Shown here one piece after another: positions 4,138 through 27,546 of a DNA stretch of 36,167 nt. The stretch comes from Synergistaceae bacterium (GTDB lineage Bacteria; Synergistota; Synergistia; Synergistales; Aminobacteriaceae). The stretch is taken from contig JAAYLU010000115.1 of NCBI GenBank assembly GCA_012521675.1, positions 1 through 36,167 on the forward strand, read 5' to 3'. Position numbers and translations under genes: made by a program. Below the pieces are notes generated by a model. The model ran no database searches, was not told where the DNA came from, and saw only the letters and a list, made by a program, of their open reading frames with translations. Position 1 is the first letter of the stretch, and the number at the start of each line of letters is the position of its first letter.

Positions 4138-4997
4138 TGCAGGCAACACAGTTCGACCTTCCGGGAGTGGACATATCATGGTGCCCGGGCTGCGGGGATT
4201 TCAAGATTCTGGACTCGATCAAGCTGGCGCTGACGGAGCTTGCCCTGACGCCGCTCGACGTTGTGGTGGTCTCGGGCATCGGGCAGGCGGCGAAGACGCC
4301 CCACTACATGAGATCTCACTTCTTCAACGGCCTGCACGGCAGGGCTCTGTCCAACGCAACCGCGATAAAGGCGGCCAATCCATCTCTCGAGGTGATAGCC
4401 GTCGGGGGTGACGGCGACATGTACGGGGAGGGGGGCAACCACTTCCTGCACACTGTCCGCAGGAACCCCGGCATCACCAACCTCGTCTTCAACAACATGG
4501 TCTACGGGCTTACCAAGGGACAGGCCTCGCCCACGAGCCAGGTGGGCTTTCGCACCCCGGTCCAGGTGGACGGAGTTCACTCTCAGCCCTTCAACCCTCT
4601 GGCAACAGCCCTCGTGCTGGGGGCGGGTTTCGTGGCCAGGGCGAACGCGGGGGACGTCGAGGAGACGAAGGACATCATCAAGCAGGCGATTAACTACAGG
4701 GGGTACGCCCTGGTGGACATCTTCCAACCCTGCGTGTCGTTCAACAAGGTGAACACCTATGCGTGGTTCAAGGAGAACACCTACTGGCTGGAGGGGCACG
4801 ACGAAAAGGACTTCGAAAGGGCGCTGGCCCTTTCCGTGTCGGACGCCCCCTATCCCCTGGGCGTGTTGTACAGGGGCACGGAGAGGACCACCTTCGAGGG
4901 TTCGCTTGCGGCCTACAGGTTGGACGATACTCCCCTGTTCAGAAGAGGGGCACGGAGAGAGGCTTTGAAGGAAATCATCGGCTATATGTCCGTTTAG
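4134..4997 (+). CDS. korB: 2-oxoacid:ferredoxin oxidoreductase, beta subunit
   Basis: The thiamine-diphosphate-binding partner of KorA, 287 residues, translationally coupled through an ATGA overlap (4134-4137) with GGGAGG just upstream. It has WCPGCGD at 16-22, and the ThDP/Mg motif runs from GDGD (92-95) to NN (120-121). QPC at 198-200 supplies another cysteine typical of the iron-sulfur cluster site. In classical two-subunit enzymes a further ligand lies in a GIGC motif; here the segment reads SGIGQAAKTPHY with Gln51 in that place. The following segment (HYMRSHFFNGLHGRAL) also lacks cysteine. No separate ferredoxin-type delta subunit gene is adjacent. It faces the convergent lipoprotein gene 14 bases away with no obvious terminator. 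Confidence 0.92.
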   Translation: MMQATQFDLPGVDISWCPGCGDFKILDSIKLALTELALTPLDVVVVSGIGQAAKTPHYMRSHFFNGLHGRALSNATAIKAANPSLEVIAVGGDGDMYGEGGNHFLHTVRRNPGITNLVFNNMVYGLTKGQASPTSQVGFRTPVQVDGVHSQPFNPLATALVLGAGFVARANAGDVEETKDIIKQAINYRGYALVDIFQPCVSFNKVNTYAWFKENTYWLEGHDEKDFERALALSVSDAPYPLGVLYRGTERTTFEGSLAAYRLDDTPLFRRGARREALKEIIGYMSV

Positions 4998-5011
4998 GGG
5001 ATCGGGTCAGG

Positions 5012-5740
5012 CTACCTTCCCCATTCCACCGTCAGGATGCGCCTCCAGGGAAAGGCCTCCATGGCCTCCCTGGAGGGCATGCCTCCATTCGACATCCTCT
5101 CGAAATCCCTGCACAGCTCTCCGTACGCCGCGCGCATACCCTCATCCGACTGGGCCTCCCGGAAGAGGTGTGCCAGGGGCAGCAGGGCCCCGTAGACGGC
5201 GGGGGCGGCCACAAGGTTAGGGCCGCTGCAGGTGATGGTCATCGCGTACACGAAGGAGAGGGTCTCCGGGCCGTCCTGCTCTTCCAGCCCGCAGTATGCC
5301 GGCAGGCGAGGGGATATGTACAGGAACACCCCGTCCTTGGCGTCCGAAGGAGTGCAGAGCCTGTCCCAGTAGGTCGGGCCCGAGGGCGCGATGGCGAACC
5401 AGGCGGTGCAGCCGTCCGAGATCGCGGTGATCCACAGGGACAGCCTCTCCTCGCTTTTCGGCTTTTCAAAATCTATGCGCCAGAGCAGGGCGTCATCTCC
5501 CTCCTCCGTTTTGACCGGGCGAGCGGTGGAGGAGAGCAGTCGCAGGTTCTCGATCCCGTCGAGGCGGTGCAGCCCTGCCGGGGTGCGGGCGAACGCGCTC
5601 CTGATAACCCCGTACCGCTGATCCAGGGTCAGGGAGACCGGGTACTGAGGGGCGGAGAGTACCTTCAATCGGGCGTGACCGAGGTCGCAGGAGGAGAGGA
5701 TCAGCGACAGGGCCAGGACTATTGCCGACGCGGTCTTCAT
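5012..5740 (-). CDS. Predicted lipoprotein of unknown function
   Basis: A 242-residue protein. From ATG 5740 it has a short hydrophobic signal peptide ending in a lipobox (LILSSC, with Cys18), so it should be lipid-anchored at the cell surface or in the periplasm. An upstream ATG at 5764 overlaps the stop of the preceding phosphatase gene; both starts keep the signal peptide and neither has a strong ribosome binding site. The mature part is mixed alpha/beta with several cysteines (in SDGCTAWF, LCTPSD, YCGLEE and ITCSGP), which might form disulfides. I do not recognise a family. It is 14 bases downstream of the phosphatase gene and probably co-transcribed. Confidence 0.75.
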   Translation of the reverse strand: MKTASAIVLALSLILSSCDLGHARLKVLSAPQYPVSLTLDQRYGVIRSAFARTPAGLHRLDGIENLRLLSSTARPVKTEEGDDALLWRIDFEKPKSEERLSLWITAISDGCTAWFAIAPSGPTYWDRLCTPSDAKDGVFLYISPRLPAYCGLEEQDGPETLSFVYAMTITCSGPNLVAAPAVYGALLPLAHLFREAQSDEGMRAAYGELCRDFERMSNGGMPSREAMEAFPWRRILTVEWGR

Positions 5741-5754
5741 CGCTCTTGTCGCGG

Positions 5755-6405
5755 CTATTCCCATTCCGTCGAGAACCCCGAGAGATGCCCGGTCCGGTTA
5801 AGAGAGTAGAGGGTGTAACCCCGGACCTCGCTGTGGTTGAGCACCGAGTAGGCCGCCGTGTCCATGTGCAGCCGCCAGAAGTACGGGGGGCGGATTCCGA
5901 GGCAACCAGCCAGCAGCGGCATGATCACCGTCCTGTGGCTGACAGCGACGACCGTCTTCCCTCGATGCTTGCTCATTATCCTGTCGAGCGCCTCCAGGGA
6001 GCGCTTTTGAACCGCGTCCATCGACTCGGCCCCCTCCAGCCGCAGGAGCTCCGGGCTCTCCAGCCATAGCCTCCACTCCTCCGGGTGATCCTTTGCTATG
6101 TCCTTCTTCAGGCGACCCTCCCAACCGCCCAGTCCTATATTGATGAAGCCCTCCTCGACCTTTACCCCGACCCCGCACTCCCTGGCGATGGCCTCGGCTG
6201 TCTGGACTGCTCGCGTGAGCGGGCTTGTTAAGACCACATCGGGACGCAGTCCGGCCACTTCCGACGCCACCTCCCCGGCCTGTCGAAGGCCGGTCTCGTT
6301 CAGCGGAAAGTCGGTCCTGCCCCGGAACAGCCCTTCGCTGTTTCCCCGGCATTCGCCGTGCCTCACCAAAAGGACCGTAGTGCGTCCGGACGCCCTGTCA
6401 GTCAT
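5755..6405 (-). CDS. Histidine phosphatase (phosphoglycerate-mutase-like) family protein
   Basis: A 216-residue cytoplasmic enzyme of the branch using a phosphohistidine. It has VRHGE at residues 14-18 with catalytic His16, an RGRTDFPLNETG segment, TSPLTRAVQTAEAI, and a second catalytic histidine in AVSHRT. ATG 6405 follows GGAGGAG at good spacing; the longer frame adds a 30-residue N-terminus without family similarity. Close families include cobalamin alpha-ribazole phosphatase and broad-specificity phosphatases. No cobalamin genes are nearby, so the substrate is unknown. It is the first gene of a minus-strand pair with the lipoprotein, divergent from the hrcA operon. Confidence 0.88.
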   Translation of the reverse strand: MTDRASGRTTVLLVRHGECRGNSEGLFRGRTDFPLNETGLRQAGEVASEVAGLRPDVVLTSPLTRAVQTAEAIARECGVGVKVEEGFINIGLGGWEGRLKKDIAKDHPEEWRLWLESPELLRLEGAESMDAVQKRSLEALDRIMSKHRGKTVVAVSHRTVIMPLLAGCLGIRPPYFWRLHMDTAAYSVLNHSEVRGYTLYSLNRTGHLSGFSTEWE

Positions 6406-6536: not shown

Positions 6537-6563
6537 TTGGCACTCACATCGATAGAGTGCTAA
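6537..6563 (+). promoter_or_regulatory. CIRCE operator (HrcA binding site)
   Basis: TTGGCACTC (6537-6545), nine bases, then GAGTGCTAA (6555-6563). This is the CIRCE inverted repeat with a single change from the canonical left arm TTAGCACTC. It sits between the promoter and the hrcA ribosome binding site, where HrcA represses heat-shock operons. It is the only CIRCE I find in the window. Confidence 0.95.
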
Positions 6564-11365: not shown

Positions 11366-11397
11366 GGGAGGCCTCGCCGGCCTCCCAATTTTTTTCT
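11366..11397 (+). terminator. Intrinsic terminator after dnaJ, just upstream of prmA
   Basis: A perfect 8-bp stem, GGGAGGCC (11366-11373) with GGCCTCCC (11379-11386), and a 5-base loop, followed by AATTTTTTT. The prmA ribosome binding site begins only a few bases after the T-run, so the hairpin may act as an attenuator for prmA as well as ending the dnaK operon. Confidence 0.85.
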
Positions 11398-12283: not shown

Positions 12284-13622
12284 CGGTAGACTGGCGGGCA
12301 AACGGGTGAAGGTCGCGACCCTCGGATGCCGCACCAACCAGTACGAGGGCGAGGCGGTAGCCAACTCCCTGGTAAACGAGGGGGCGGTGCTGGCGGAAGG
12401 TCCCGGGTGCGACGTCGCGGTGCTGATGAGCTGCACCGTCACGTCGGTCGCGGACGCAAAGTGCCGCCGGATGGTCAGGCGCTTCAGGCGAGACAACCCG
12501 GCCGCACTCGTAGCCGTGTGCGGCTGCTGGGCGCAGCGCCTGGACGAGGCCGAGGCCAGGGAGCTGGGCATAGATATCCTGCTGGGGAACAGGAAGAAGC
12601 ACATGCTGCCGGAGCTGCTGGCGGACTTTCCCTCGGGCGGGAAGGGCCTGTCGGTGATCCGGGGAGATGTCCTCGAGTGCGATGAGTGGGATCCACTCTT
12701 CCAGTGCAGGCCCCTGCTGCACACCCGGGCCTTTGTGAAGGTGCAGGATGGCTGCGACCAGTTCTGCTCCTACTGCTTGGTGCCGTACGTTCGCGGGCTT
12801 CCCGTCGACCGGGCGCCCGAGGACGTGGTGGAGGAGGTCCGCTCGATAGTCGCCTCCGGATGTGCGGAGGTCGTAGTCACCGGGGTTCACCTGGGACTCT
12901 ACGGGAGGGGCGGGACGTCCCTGGCCGACCTGGTGAGACGCATCGCGTCGGTGGACGGGCTGAAGAGGCTGCGCTTCGGCTCGCTGGAGCCGCCCTGCAT
13001 CGACGAAGAGCTGCTTGATGTCCTCGCAGGGACTCCGCAGTTCCAGCCGCACCTTCACATCCCGGTGCAGAGCGGCAGCGACAGGGTGCTGGATCTGATG
13101 AACCGGGGGTATTCAGCGGACGAGTACGCGAATATTGTCGGACGGGCGCGTTCTGCGCTCGGTGACGACATTCACATAAGCACGGACCTCCTGGTGGGCT
13201 TCCCCGGGGAGGAAGGGAACGACTTCGAGGATTCCCTCGGCCTTCTCTCCGCCTTGCGCATGGGCAAGGTGCACGTCTTCCCCTTCTCGCCGCGCGAGGG
13301 CACCAGGGCCTTCGACATGCCGGGGCAGCTGCCCCGCGCGGAGATCGCCGCTCGGACCAGACGGGCTCTCTCTCTCGGGGAGTCGCTCCTGGGGGAGTTC
13401 GCGGCGAGCCGGGCGGGAAGGGATGTGCGGGTCCTGGTGGAGAGGGCGGCCCCCTCGACCGACCAGGGGAGGCGGACCATCGAGGCGAGAGGGCTTTCGC
13501 CCTGTTTTCTCCGAGTGGAGGGGGAGTGCCCCGATTCCGCCCGAGTGACCCGGGGCGAGGAGTTCTTGTTCGCGATCACCGGCTATTCCGGCGGAGCTCT
13601 GAAAGGGCGGCTGATATCTTGA
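12270..13622 (+). CDS. mtaB: tRNA t6A37 methylthiotransferase MtaB
   Basis: About 450 residues. This radical-SAM enzyme adds the 2-methylthio group to t6A at position 37 of tRNAs reading ANN codons. The N-terminal UPF0004 domain has TLGCRTNQYEGEA and further cysteines in MSCTVTSVAD and VCGCWAQR for the auxiliary cluster. The radical-SAM triad CxxxCxxC is Cys162, Cys166 and Cys169; a TRAM-like domain ends the protein. The start is uncertain: TTG 12270 has a GGTGGGGG sequence upstream and overlaps prmA by 14 bases, while GTG 12306 would match the usual family N-terminus. The next gene starts inside its stop codon. Confidence 0.92.
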   Translation: MRRISGRLAGKRVKVATLGCRTNQYEGEAVANSLVNEGAVLAEGPGCDVAVLMSCTVTSVADAKCRRMVRRFRRDNPAALVAVCGCWAQRLDEAEARELGIDILLGNRKKHMLPELLADFPSGGKGLSVIRGDVLECDEWDPLFQCRPLLHTRAFVKVQDGCDQFCSYCLVPYVRGLPVDRAPEDVVEEVRSIVASGCAEVVVTGVHLGLYGRGGTSLADLVRRIASVDGLKRLRFGSLEPPCIDEELLDVLAGTPQFQPHLHIPVQSGSDRVLDLMNRGYSADEYANIVGRARSALGDDIHISTDLLVGFPGEEGNDFEDSLGLLSALRMGKVHVFPFSPREGTRAFDMPGQLPRAEIAARTRRALSLGESLLGEFAASRAGRDVRVLVERAAPSTDQGRRTIEARGLSPCFLRVEGECPDSARVTRGEEFLFAITGYSGGALKGRLIS

Positions 13623-15172
13623 CTTCACCTACTCTTGGAATAGACCTTGGGACCAGGTACGCTCTGTCCGCACTGCCCTTGCCGGGCAAGGGGATCGTTG
13701 TGATCCCAAGCCGCTGGGGCGGCTTCAGGATCCCGTCCGTGACATCGTGGACCCCTTCAGGCTGGCTCGCCGGCGAGGATGCGGTGCGAGCGGAGATGAG
13801 GAGCCCGTCCACGACATGGTGGGACGTTAAGCGCAAGCTTGGCACCCAGTGGAAGGCGAGAGCGGGGCGGGTGGTCTACAAGGCGGAGGAGGTTCTGGCG
13901 CCTCTTATGAACTTGGTCAGGGAGGATGCGGAGGCCTACCTCGGGGAGTTCATTTCCTCCTGCGTGCTGGCAGTGCCCGCCTCTTTCAGCTTCAACGAGA
14001 GAGCGGCGGCCGGCAGGGTCGCCCGCTCAGCGGGCTTTTCAGAGGTCCGGATCATCAACGAGCCGACCGCGGCGGCACTGGCCTTCGGGTTTGAGGGGAA
14101 GTTCCTGATACTCGACTATGGCGCCGGGACGGTGGATATCTCCGTGGTGGAGAGCGAGAACGGAGTGTGGCAGGTCCTTGAGAGCACCGGAACTCCCGCC
14201 TCGGGCGGCAGGGATTTCGATGTCGCCCTCGCGTCCCGCCTTAAAGAAAGATTGAACATCCCCGAGCTGGAGGAGAGTTCCCCCCTCTTCAGGACTCTCC
14301 TGAACGAGGCGGAGGAGCTGAAGGCGATGCTGACCTCGTGCGCCTCCTACGAGTGGAATCCCCCTCCGGGAATCGCGTCCCCGCCGCTTCTCGTCACGCG
14401 CGAGGAGCTGGAGGAGCTGATCTCTCCCTTCATCGAAGGGGTCTGCACCATGGTCCAACGTCTCTGGAGAAGGCACAGGCCGAAGGAGCTTCTCCTTATC
14501 GGAGGCGGAAGCAGGGTTCCAATGCTCAGGCGGATGCTCGAGGAGAAAGTGGCCAGGCCGGGTCATCTGAACCAGTGCCCGGACGAGACGGTCGTGACCG
14601 GCGCGGCCCTCTACGGGGTCATGCCGGAGAAGGGGCGTCTGCTTCTCGACGTCCTGTCCCAGGACCTGGGGATCCTGGCCGCGGACGGCGCCCCTGTGCC
14701 GCTGCTGGAGAGGGGGACCTACCTGCCCGCAAAGGCCGAGAGGCGTTTTCTTAGCGTAGGGGACGGAGCTTTCACCGTGAAGGTGTTCCAGGGTAAAGGC
14801 AGAAAGAAGAGGATAATCGCCTCTGTCAAGACTCAGGAGGCGAAAAAGGGCGAGGAGATGGCACTCTCTTTCTCCGTGGACTCCGACGGGCTGCTGAAAA
14901 TTGATATAATACGCTCCGATGGCAGGATAACCTCCGTGGCGCCCTTGGAACTGGGGGAGGACTCCCGCTCCACCGAGATGGAGGCCACGGAAGAGCTCAA
15001 GGAGCTGGAGAGGCGCTTCGCCCTTCTGTCCGTATCCCTCTCGACCTCCCAGCAGGAGAGAGGCGCCGCGATATTCAGGATGGCGAAGACCTTGGGCGAG
15101 GGGGAGTACTACCTCGAGGCCTTCGAATCGCTGGAGAGGATGATCTCCGAGATGGAGGGGGTTGTTAGTTAG
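13619..15172 (+). CDS. Divergent Hsp70-family protein (second Hsp70, short lid)
   Basis: 517 residues from TTG 13619, which overlaps the mtaB stop (TTGA). The ATPase core is intact at key places: Asp9 and Thr12 in GIDLGTRYA, Lys71 in VKRKLG, Glu148 in INEPTAAALAFG, and Asp166/Thr171 in DYGAGTVDIS. The motifs are altered, however: TTNS becomes TRYA, LGGGT becomes YGAGT, and the adenosine motif is IGGGSRVP. A linker-like LLLDV follows near residue 342, then a beta domain and a shortened helical end, so it is about 90 residues shorter than DnaK. It has the look of a specialised Hsp70 like HscC rather than a housekeeping DnaK. Its partner is probably the J-protein immediately downstream (1-base gap). 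Clients are unknown. Confidence 0.85.
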   Translation: MTSPTLGIDLGTRYALSALPLPGKGIVVIPSRWGGFRIPSVTSWTPSGWLAGEDAVRAEMRSPSTTWWDVKRKLGTQWKARAGRVVYKAEEVLAPLMNLVREDAEAYLGEFISSCVLAVPASFSFNERAAAGRVARSAGFSEVRIINEPTAAALAFGFEGKFLILDYGAGTVDISVVESENGVWQVLESTGTPASGGRDFDVALASRLKERLNIPELEESSPLFRTLLNEAEELKAMLTSCASYEWNPPPGIASPPLLVTREELEELISPFIEGVCTMVQRLWRRHRPKELLLIGGGSRVPMLRRMLEEKVARPGHLNQCPDETVVTGAALYGVMPEKGRLLLDVLSQDLGILAADGAPVPLLERGTYLPAKAERRFLSVGDGAFTVKVFQGKGRKKRIIASVKTQEAKKGEEMALSFSVDSDGLLKIDIIRSDGRITSVAPLELGEDSRSTEMEATEELKELERRFALLSVSLSTSQQERGAAIFRMAKTLGEGEYYLEAFESLERMISEMEGVVS

Positions 15173-15173
15173 C

Positions 15174-16175
15174 ATGGGCGTAACCTTGGAGCTGTTCGAG
15201 TGCTTCGATATACTGGGAGTGCAGCCCGGAGCCCATCTGAAGGAGATTCGCTCGGCCTTCAGGAGGCTCGCCCTCTCCTGCCATCCGGACGTCGCGGGTC
15301 CCGGGTCGGCTAAGGAGTTCGAGACGGTGGCTGCGGCCTACGCCAGGCTCAAGTCCGCCACGCCCACGCAGGTGACCGAGTCGCTTAAGAAGAAAAAGGC
15401 CAAAGCGAAGGGCGCCCGCAGGGGAGCGTCACCCTATTCCAGGGAGTCGTCGCGTGATCGCGGCAGGTCCAGGTCCTCTCGTCGGGAGAAAAAGGCAGGC
15501 GACCGTTCGCAACGGGTGTCCGATCTCATGCTGGAGAGGGCGCTGGTGGACGCCGAGCTATATTTTGCCAGGATCATGGAGAAGGCAGCTCGCAGCACCG
15601 ACGCACCACAGTCGGCTTCACTAGCAGTGCGCCTCCTGAGCGCTCATCCCGCCGTGCGCATGCTGGCGATCGGGGCTCTTATCAAGAGCTCGATCGATGC
15701 GGCCGTTCTCTCGGCCCTGGTAGAGATGGTCAAGCGCTGGCCGCCCGACGATGACGTTATAGAGAGCCTGTTCATGCTGAACTTTTCGAAGGCTCAAAAG
15801 GAAGCGATGTTGTCTGCTCTGAGCGCGAAGATCCCGCTTCTTTCCGAGTGCTCGGCGCTTGCGCTGATGCGCTTTGCGTCCCGCTCCCCGGCAGGCGCCC
15901 TGGTGTACGAGAGGATGCTTTCCCATTCGTCTCACAGGGTGCTCGCCTCCGCTCTGCCGAAATGGCCGAGGAAGGAGCCTCCCGACGACCTGACGCTCAT
16001 AAGGCTTCTGAAGAGGGATGAGGACGTGGTCCTGGTCCCGCTTCTCCGGCTCCTCAGGGCGAGGAGGATCCCCGCCTGGGCCGCGGCCCGGGTGAAGCTC
16101 CTGGCGGAAAAGCACGAGTCGCCCGCTGTGAGAGTTTGGGCGGGGTCTATTGTGCAGGCGCAGAATTTGGTATAG
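15174..16175 (+). CDS. J-domain protein with basic linker and helical-repeat tail
   Basis: 333 residues from ATG 15174 (a TTG at 15162 is possible but directly abuts the GGAGGGGG). The N-terminal J domain (about residues 8-63) keeps HPD at 37-39 and a basic helix II. It is followed by a Lys/Arg/Ser-rich disordered linker (about 72-118) and then about 215 residues of short amphipathic helices resembling HEAT/Armadillo repeats (for example AVRLLSAHPAVRMLAIGAL and the later PAVRVWAGSI). There is no Gly/Phe region or zinc domain, so it is a class C J-protein likely dedicated to the Hsp70 encoded just before it. The basic linker suggests contact with RNA, ribosome or another acidic partner (inference). 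Confidence 0.8.
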   Translation: MGVTLELFECFDILGVQPGAHLKEIRSAFRRLALSCHPDVAGPGSAKEFETVAAAYARLKSATPTQVTESLKKKKAKAKGARRGASPYSRESSRDRGRSRSSRREKKAGDRSQRVSDLMLERALVDAELYFARIMEKAARSTDAPQSASLAVRLLSAHPAVRMLAIGALIKSSIDAAVLSALVEMVKRWPPDDDVIESLFMLNFSKAQKEAMLSALSAKIPLLSECSALALMRFASRSPAGALVYERMLSHSSHRVLASALPKWPRKEPPDDLTLIRLLKRDEDVVLVPLLRLLRARRIPAWAAARVKLLAEKHESPAVRVWAGSIVQAQNLV

Positions 16176-25674: not shown

Positions 25675-25704
25675 TTCCAGCTCCTCGAAGAAAGGAGACA
25701 GGTG

Positions 25705-27546
25705 ATGAAATCGATCAGAAAAACCTTGTCCGATGTCGTCCTCCTTGCGGCGATATCAATGCTGATTCTGTCCGGCACGTGTCGCGCGGATGCCTCGGCC
25801 TCGGTCAACATATCGCGCATGATACAGGAGTGTCCCTCCTTCTCGGACTATCCGGGGGAGGACGGTGTCATATGGCTTCGCGACGTGAAATATTCCCTGG
25901 CCGCGGACGGGGCCATGAGACGGGACTCTCTCTACGTGATACTGGCCAGGCGTGGGATCGACGAGTCCTGGACCAGGTGGTCGCTGCCCTCGGGAGAGGA
26001 TGGAGAGGGAGCCGAGATACTGGAGGCCGCGATCTACGACCCGGGGACGGGGAGAATGCTCGCCCCCGTGCTGCCCCGTCTCGCGGACATGGACGGGGTG
26101 AAGGTCGCCGAGGTCCATTTTCCGGATATCCAGGATGAATACCTGGTGCTTCTCTCCTACAGGGAGGTCTTCAAGAAACGCCTCTCGGTGGACGACCTGG
26201 TGTGGGTGAACGACTCCCTGCCGGTCTGGGAGCTGCTGGTCACGGTCGACGTCCCCCCGGGGAGCGAGCTTGCGATCTCTGCGAGAGGCGCCGGAGACCT
26301 CGTGAGGGAGAGCGTCGGCGCGAAGGAGCGCTACTCCTGGCACCTGGTCAACAACCTGCCGTGGACGAGCAGGACGCTCAGGGGCGACGCCAGGTCCTAC
26401 CTTGCCTTCTCGACGAGGAAGGGGACCGAGCCTCTGGCAAGAATGCTTATGTCCCTCGAGAGCAGCCTCGCACCCTCTCCCCACCCCTCGATCGCGCACC
26501 TGGTCCCGCAGAAGAACAGGCTGAAGACCGGGAGTTCGCTGATCTCGTGGGTGAACTCCGCCCCCTCCCTGCACGGAAGCGCCCTCTCTTCCGTCGTGAG
26601 GCCGATCATTCCGGAGGAGGGGCCATGGTCGGACTGGGAGAAGGTCCTGATCCTGAACAGCTGGCTTCGCAAGGCGGGCTGGCAGAGCACCGTGCACTGG
26701 CTCACGGCTCACCCCCTCGACGACGAGACCCCGGTGACGATCGGATCGATCCTCCGTCCCGTGCTCGAGCTCAACCTGGAGGGGACCTCCCCCTTCTTTC
26801 TCGACCTGGGACAGGGGTACAGCCGCAACGAGACGCCTCCCTCCCTGTGGGGCAAACACATCTATACGGCCTCGGGCAACCGGCTGAACGGCCGGGTGGT
26901 GAGCGGAAGCTCGGCGTCGGAGCACAGACTTTCGATAGAATGGCACCTCGAGCTCGACGCCGACGGCGAGGCCTCCGGGTATGTCGACATACTTGCCCGC
27001 AACGGCTGGAGCGCCTTTATGTTTCCGGGGGACGGCCCGAGCACGGAGACCATCAGACGAGCGGCCGAGGAGCTGTTCTGGGGGCTTCCGGTCGAGGCGG
27101 ACGTTGCGGCGGTCGCCTCCAAGCCGATCAAGTACGGTCACCAGCTCTCCATGCCCGTCCGGCTGAGAAACAGCATCGTAAGCGGAGGGGCTCTTTTGTT
27201 CATGTTCCCGGGATCGGCCCCCTCCTGGCTCGAGGAGCTGGGCAGGTGGTCTGAGGATTACCGACTGGACTTCCCCTTCGTCGTGGAGCAGTCCTTGAGC
27301 CTGAAGCTCCCTTCCCGCTCGCAGGTGGTGATGGCCCCGGTCAAGGTTGAAAGGGTGATGGAAAGGGTGACTTACGAGGAGTCCGTTTTCTATAACAAGA
27401 AGAGAGGGCTGTTCAACGCCGGCAGCAAGATAGTCCTCAAGACCGAGACGCTCAACGAAGCGGCGGGCAGAAGCCTGGGCGAGGCGGTTCAACGCTGGCT
27501 GGCCTGGGGCGAAAAGAACCTGCCCCTGCGCCTCGCCGGGCAGTAG
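25705..27546 (+). CDS. Exported DUF3857 / degenerate transglutaminase-like protein
   Basis: 613 residues from ATG 25705, seven bases after AAAGGAG (a GTG at 25702 is too close). It has an N-terminal signal peptide (about residues 1-30) ending near CRADASA. Residues about 40-210 resemble DUF3857: alternating strands with DVKYSLAADGAM, IYDPGTGRML and FPDIQDEYLVLLSYREVF. A region around 310-400 follows the layout of the transglutaminase core, with WEKVLILNSWLRKAGW where a GDCxDKxxLLxxLLR helix is expected and FFLDLGQGY for the Asp strand, but the catalytic Cys and His are not present. The C-terminal part is beta-rich, like DUF3858. Probably periplasmic and non-enzymatic; function unknown. It is 30 bases after secA and likely in its transcript. 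Confidence 0.65.
   Translation: MKSIRKTLSDVVLLAAISMLILSGTCRADASASVNISRMIQECPSFSDYPGEDGVIWLRDVKYSLAADGAMRRDSLYVILARRGIDESWTRWSLPSGEDGEGAEILEAAIYDPGTGRMLAPVLPRLADMDGVKVAEVHFPDIQDEYLVLLSYREVFKKRLSVDDLVWVNDSLPVWELLVTVDVPPGSELAISARGAGDLVRESVGAKERYSWHLVNNLPWTSRTLRGDARSYLAFSTRKGTEPLARMLMSLESSLAPSPHPSIAHLVPQKNRLKTGSSLISWVNSAPSLHGSALSSVVRPIIPEEGPWSDWEKVLILNSWLRKAGWQSTVHWLTAHPLDDETPVTIGSILRPVLELNLEGTSPFFLDLGQGYSRNETPPSLWGKHIYTASGNRLNGRVVSGSSASEHRLSIEWHLELDADGEASGYVDILARNGWSAFMFPGDGPSTETIRRAAEELFWGLPVEADVAAVASKPIKYGHQLSMPVRLRNSIVSGGALLFMFPGSAPSWLEELGRWSEDYRLDFPFVVEQSLSLKLPSRSQVVMAPVKVERVMERVTYEESVFYNKKRGLFNAGSKIVLKTETLNEAAGRSLGEAVQRWLAWGEKNLPLRLAGQ

Follow-up and report, generated by a model that had tools for sequence, protein, structure and literature searches.

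Two adjacent genes at positions 13619-16175 of a 36,167-nucleotide stretch of Synergistaceae DNA (contig JAAYLU010000115.1; this whole stretch is called the window below) encode a divergent Hsp70 and a J-domain protein, for which the working names HspX and J-HEAT were coined in this analysis, and the HspX/J-HEAT pair is a conserved Synergistota family. The reading frames and the Pfam matches (HSP70 at 2e-59 for HspX, above the 20.6-bit cut-off, and DnaJ for its neighbour) confirm the Hsp70 gene and J-protein gene that the original prediction, made from the window alone, had placed there. In terms of function, it appears fairly likely that HspX and J-HEAT together form a single dedicated Synergistota Hsp70-J machine, most likely running a J-triggered ATPase cycle in species with full-length HspX, and with J-HEAT acting on another Hsp70 in a clade where HspX is reduced.

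The conservation of the pair was evaluated in a survey of 188 genomes taken as Synergistota, in which absence from a draft genome can be due to assembly loss. HspX was detected in some form in 115 genomes and J-HEAT in 119; 108 hold both and 62 neither, while 18 have one only (11 with J-HEAT, 7 with HspX), giving a co-occurrence with a Fisher p of 6e-30 that is not corrected for relatedness. The two genes are neighbours in 68 genomes, their matched stretches being at most 166 bp apart (three of these are the pairs of family f11 discussed below), and the order mtaB-HspX-J-HEAT-rpsU recurs across families, so that the homologues are not scattered without linkage. In the same line, the pairwise distances of HspX and J-HEAT are correlated (r 0.96; partial 0.88 given mtaB), a value reached by 0 of 2000 permutations. 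The evidence for co-occurrence, linkage and correlated evolution is strong, co-occurrence across Synergistota being what the original prediction had proposed to look for. Chance is excluded as the source of the pair, since both reading frames are found intact in many genomes of the phylum. Among the exceptions, the single genes of G038, G099 and G158 sit at contig ends. In genera g3 and g22, isolated members lack the entire pair, with both genes present in their relatives.

Clostridia had also been named as possible hosts, but a profile search retrieved no member of the family in 398 Bacillota and 251 Chloroflexota sampled genomes, where the best-scoring matches were DnaKs (frame lengths 613-686 aa). 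Within this sampling, with these two phyla for comparison, the pair is therefore confined to one phylum. A scan of genome contigs with J-HEAT, in which the matches listed were mostly ordinary J domains, was not used for the distribution. The Hsp70 pairs of Peptoniphilus (L290) and Chloroflexaceae (L292) were set aside as DnaK-like (42-46% identity) and judged independent of HspX. The former (L290:2800-5614) consists of a 516-aa DnaK-like Hsp70 followed by a 420-aa protein with a J-domain-like start lacking the HPD motif, and appears to be a divergent Hsp70-J pair of independent origin. The latter (L292:2-3159), with a J-domain protein, a GrpE-like protein and a 579-aa Hsp70 in a row, is another small dedicated Hsp70 set.

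Regarding HspX itself, the protein has the features of the Hsp70 superfamily, namely the phosphate and adenosine motifs of the nucleotide-binding domain (NBD), the interdomain linker, the beta part of the substrate-binding domain (SBD-beta) and a helical lid. The catalytic residues named in the original prediction (D9, T12, K71, E148, T171) are numbered exactly on the translation and correspond in the alignment to E. coli DnaK D8, T11, K70, E171 and T199. The motifs GTRYA (11-15), DYGAGT (166-171) and GGGSR (295-299) are exact as well, but the last, described like the others as an altered loop, hardly differs from the GGSTR of the window DnaK and keeps its Arg. An RWG motif at HspX residues 32-34 is invariant across the family.

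A residue map was built by aligning 28 full-length HspX proteins to E. coli DnaK, whose numbering is used from here on; it relies on a single MAFFT alignment, least certain in the lid. At least 26 of the 28 keep D8, T11, K70, E171, D194, T199, D201, G341, G342 and R345, as well as the linker residues L391 and D393 and the J-docking residues E206 and P419. R167, which in DnaK contacts the Asp of the J-protein HPD motif, is kept in 22. With catalytic and linker residues present in 26-28 of the 28 sequences, the view that HspX is a decayed DnaK is ruled out for the full-length forms, as the original prediction had held. The replacements are T12 by R (27 sequences), S14 by A (26), D148 by F or L (27), G197 by A (25), E217 by Q (26), N366 by C (22) and Q378 mostly by Y, those at T12, G197, D148 and N366 being the consistent departures from DnaK. 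Besides, the GrpE signature (DnaK 290-295) is gone, positions 290-292 being empty in 26-27 of the 28 and 293-294 showing no conservation, and K55 and E264, halves of two salt bridges of the DnaK cleft, are lost. Within SBD-beta, F426 is retained, but most sequences have F, L or I at the pocket residue V436 and the arch residue A429 is most often V; the Asp at position 477 is missing. Finally, the lid is shortened as announced, to about 66 residues in three helices, according to the alignment and to a sequence-only AlphaFold model (pLDDT 41) taken merely as a hint for the lid, its confidence elsewhere being too low to use.

Read with the yardsticks of the Mayer review (PMC8215388), this residue pattern predicts that HspX releases nucleotide fast and independently of GrpE, and that its client pocket is shallow. 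GrpE independence is plausible because the GrpE signature is deleted, and a narrow client range, already suggested in the original prediction, is made plausible by the change of V436 to F, L or I.

The partner, J-HEAT, comprises a J domain at residues 10-61 (about 5-61 in the coordinates of Table 1), a variable linker and a predicted alpha-solenoid. It has a J domain with HPD and is devoid of the G/F, zinc-finger and DnaJ_C domains, as expected of a class C J-protein. The HPD motif is invariant in 43/43 J-HEAT sequences and, in the same 43, DnaJ K48 and K51 are replaced. These two lysines position DnaJ on DnaK, and their loss matches the loss in HspX of the Asp at position 477. The original prediction rightly recognized the J-domain partner but overlooked its C-terminal domain, as well as the reduced lineages described below. 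In the window protein DnaJ is the sole Pfam domain, HEAT itself falling below the Pfam cut-offs; its f11 relatives, of the same architecture, give clear HEAT_2 matches (3e-24 to 2e-26), and the J-HEAT and f11 profiles align over the J domain and the first repeats with 99% probability. Taken together, the structure model and these homologues show the C-terminal part to be a HEAT-like domain. Fold matches in the PDB to importin-alpha, TOG and Pumilio solenoids and to J domains are weak (best E 0.0095), and are consistent with ARM/HEAT and J folds without proving them. No transmembrane-like stretch was detected in HspX or J-HEAT by a hydropathy scan, nor a C-terminal membrane anchor in J-HEAT, whose top 19-residue hydropathy (1.69) lies within the solenoid. 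A basic linker, considered as a hint of ribosome binding, was dropped since its basicity is not conserved. In genus g54 (L078:9293-9712 of G176; also G177), only about 140 aa of the J-protein remain, made up of the J domain and one HEAT-like unit, and its gene adjoins that of a fast-evolving HspX.

Table 1. Coordinates of the HspX/J-HEAT pair, its domains and the upstream gene in the window
Feature	Position	Strand	Basis or remark
mtaB-like gene	12303..13622	+	Conserved upstream neighbour of HspX
HspX, divergent Hsp70, 517 aa	13619..15172	+	TTG start overlapping mtaB stop; full-length family members in 72 Synergistota genomes
HspX NBD, aa 1-335	13619..14623	+	Catalytic D9, T12, K71, E148, D166, T171, D173 kept; GrpE signature deleted
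HspX interdomain linker LLLDVLS, aa 341-347	14639..14659	+	D344 = DnaK D393
HspX SBD-beta, about aa 348-446	14660..14956	+	F at DnaK pocket V436; model strands of low confidence
HspX short lid, about aa 451-516	14969..15166	+	Three helices, without long helix A/B; pLDDT 52-75 here
J-HEAT, class C J-protein, 333 aa	15174..16175	+	ATG start; Pfam DnaJ 5.5e-12
J domain, about aa 5-61, HPD at 37-39	15186..15356	+	Pfam DnaJ domain; HPD invariant in J-HEAT sequences
HEAT-like alpha-solenoid, aa 146-332	15609..16169	+	Model pLDDT about 90; HEAT_2 matches in f11 homologues

From the co-occurrence, linkage and correlated evolution of the two genes and from these sequence features we infer physical pairing, ATPase stimulation, GrpE independence and narrow clients. 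In the dedicated machine proposed here, the J domain of J-HEAT would dock on the NBD and linker of HspX and trigger ATP hydrolysis, the HEAT solenoid would select a client or docking site, and nucleotide exchange would proceed without GrpE; the shallow pocket and small lid would favour few, weakly held clients. Full-length HspX and J-HEAT would thereby work like HscC-DjlC or HscA-HscB. Three observations weigh against this model. In 27/28 full-length HspX, a substitution affects D148, a residue that in DnaK is implicated in substrate-stimulated hydrolysis (PMC8215388). Genome G100 has a full-length HspX and no detectable J-HEAT, and looks like a real exception. Finally, reduced relatives lose SBD-beta and catalysis while the pair is kept, so that client folding may not be its core role; lineages whose Hsp70 has given up client binding and catalysis also argue that the pair does more than run a classical client-folding cycle.

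These reduced forms follow a graded pattern. In genera g11, g17 and g19, mtaB is followed by a gene for a 381-417-aa protein that consists of the NBD and lid helices without SBD-beta, and in the four aligned sequences D201 is lost in 4/4, D8 in 3/4 and K70 in 3/4. In genus g10, a PF00012 search had wrongly indicated that HspX is absent; a profile built from the short forms recovers a remnant of 300-344 aa with intact frames in 34 of 43 genomes, located directly after mtaB in the 4/4 contexts checked. The remnant keeps the GID-G-S loop, DFGAS, K270 and TGG, and one of its best conserved segments is the lid motif LTRxQKDRLYxLFRQ; subdomain IB (including K70), the linker and SBD-beta are missing, T199 and R167 are lost and E171 mostly so. 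In the tree, both kinds of reduced protein branch from within the full-length HspX (clade support 100/99), with g11 and g10 as sisters (99/89), and SBD-beta was probably lost twice, a single loss not being rejected by the approximately unbiased (AU) test (0.176). They are under purifying selection, with dN/dS values (simple NG86 estimates) that have a median of 0.17 in g10 and span 0.22-0.34 in g11, compared to 0.15 in full-length forms. On the J-HEAT side, HPD is kept in 19/19 g10 sequences when whole frames are used, an apparent loss in some having been an artefact of ATG start choice. In g10, whose genomes contain DnaK, linkage between the two genes has been lost, and two g20 genomes keep J-HEAT alone. 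Three g10 genomes also have 900-914-aa frames with Hsp70-type NBD matches (G085:C1, G046:C7, G049:C6), which are large Hsp70-like proteins.

One may wonder whether the reduced genes are simply decaying towards loss, the pair being a minor redundant chaperone. Catalytic residues and domains are indeed lost stepwise, and the genomes with neither gene or, in g20, with J-HEAT only would fit such a trend. However, the intact g10 frames and their low dN/dS, the same place after mtaB wherever checked, and the conserved DFGAS, TGG and lid motifs make this explanation very improbable.

If its J domain cannot act on a remnant without catalytic residues, J-HEAT in the reduced clade should need another Hsp70. 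In the dedicated-machine model, this motor would most likely be DnaK, the closest model being Ssz1-Zuotin. A more far-reaching possibility, which we consider doubtful, is that HspX is mainly a stable structural partner of J-HEAT in the whole family, the J domain acting on DnaK as Zuotin does on Ssb. This would account for reduced forms that stay under purifying selection without K70, T199, SBD-beta and linker, next to an intact HPD, and whose lid helices are the best-kept part. Nevertheless, full-length HspX keeps the whole catalytic and linker apparatus, needless for a pure scaffold, the lysines positioning DnaJ on DnaK are lost in J-HEAT, and the genes are unlinked in g10. A precedent does exist in yeast, where Ssz1 acts without ATP hydrolysis and the J domain of Zuo1 drives Ssb (PMC7083937, PMC8476630). 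Equally tentative is the idea that a bacterial pseudo-Hsp70, made of NBD core and lid without peptide-binding domain or hydrolysis, became a lasting J-HEAT partner handing clients or activation to DnaK, having converged with Ssz1-Zuotin, with full-length HspX as the older ATPase-competent form.

As to its relationships, all HspX sequences fall into a single clade (100/100), which has a long stem and lies apart from DnaK and HscA. The best tree groups it with HscC at 92/77, a weak, unstarred support obtained with one HscC only and long branches; joining HspX with the f11 DnaK paralogue (AU 0.33) or with HscA (AU 0.149) is not rejected. HspX scores 179.5 bits against the NCBIfam DnaK equivalog (cut-off 822.55) and 176.2 bits against HscA TIGR01991 (cut-off 708.55), the N-terminal extension of the latter being absent. 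Judged by its sequence features, HspX is neither HscC nor HscA. In family f11 (G002-G004), a 570-aa DnaK-type Hsp70 is directly followed by a J-HEAT protein, beside rpsU in G004, which hints that the HspX/J-HEAT pair may have arisen from a duplicated dnaK with J-HEAT next to it.

In the window, the pair is preceded by a complete hrcA-grpE-dnaK-dnaJ set, as originally described, then by prmA and a UPF0004/radical SAM gene (mtaB), and followed by genes for a HIT protein, rpsU and nrdR. The TTG start of HspX lies in a TTGA shared with the mtaB TGA (13620-13622), an overlap correctly noted before. A CIRCE operator with 1 mismatch is located at 6537-6563 (0.01 expected by chance) and overlaps the GTG at 6557, so that hrcA probably starts further downstream. 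Because a terminator-like hairpin (11366-11386, between dnaJ and prmA) follows dnaJ, HrcA control of the pair does not follow from its adjacency to the heat-shock genes, and their transcript may not extend to it. The source genome holds one GrpE, the pair thus having none of its own, and four J-domain proteins. It also encodes a further canonical DnaK (G000:C45:2737-4623, L107; 628 aa, 54% identity to the window dnaK), which belongs to a separate clade also found in other Synergistota; the divergent Hsp70 is thus real but the third, and not the second, of this genome. Two long open frames of the window, 25702-27546 (614 aa) and 4763-5809 (348 aa), have no Pfam match at 1e-5, the former competing with a 578-aa frame on the other strand.

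The gene order also led to the claim that the pair is connected with tRNA modification and L11 methylation, and more generally it could serve translation by acting on MtaB, PrmA or ribosomal proteins encoded nearby. The mtaB overlap and the conserved neighbours prmA, mtaB and rpsU speak for it. Yet a clostridial genome (L216) and other Synergistota (L092, L093) have dnaJ-prmA-mtaB-rpsU in this order but lack the pair, which removes the ground for the claim, and J-HEAT is located elsewhere in g10; a role in translation is accordingly improbable.

HspX represents a further bacterial Hsp70 type beside DnaK, HscA and HscC. No description of a J plus HEAT architecture, nor of a selected non-catalytic bacterial Hsp70, was found in the open PMC literature, and the latter would be unusual, if true. 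The series from full-length to SBD-beta-less and IB-less HspX, encoded at one and the same gene position and with an intact J partner, constitutes a natural test of the long-standing question of which Hsp70 parts a J-protein partnership needs.

Several known systems resemble the pair in part. Like HspX, the E. coli HscC of HscC-DjlB/DjlC is short for an Hsp70 (556 aa) and divergent; it lacks the GrpE signature and has dedicated class C J-proteins nearby. However, HscC keeps GTTNS, D148, E217 and Q378, all changed or absent in HspX, and has a 4-8-residue insertion in L1,2 of SBD-beta that HspX lacks; its helix B deletion comprises nine residues, whereas far more of the helix A/B region is deleted in HspX. 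DjlB and DjlC have HPE and a membrane tail, in contrast to the HPD and soluble HEAT-like domain of J-HEAT. HscA-HscB shares with HspX the deleted GrpE signature, a large residue at pocket position 436 and a dedicated J-protein next door, but HscA lies beside Fe-S assembly genes and has a full lid as well as an N-terminal extension, none of which is found for HspX. The f11 DnaK paralogue shares Tyr at DnaK position 13, V or I at 429 and the adjacent J-HEAT, but is 57-58% identical to DnaK and has the GrpE signature, unlike HspX. Finally, Ssz1-Zuotin, the ribosome-associated complex, likewise combines an atypical Hsp70 with a J-protein, and reduced HspX can be likened to it in having lost catalysis and the client domain beside a partner whose J domain is intact. 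Nevertheless, Ssz1 is without lid and keeps SBD-beta, whereas reduced HspX is without SBD-beta and keeps the lid, as do all forms of HspX, and J-HEAT has no zuotin homology domain. The two are not homologous as systems and, because the missing piece differs (the lid there, SBD-beta here), any likeness between them is convergence.

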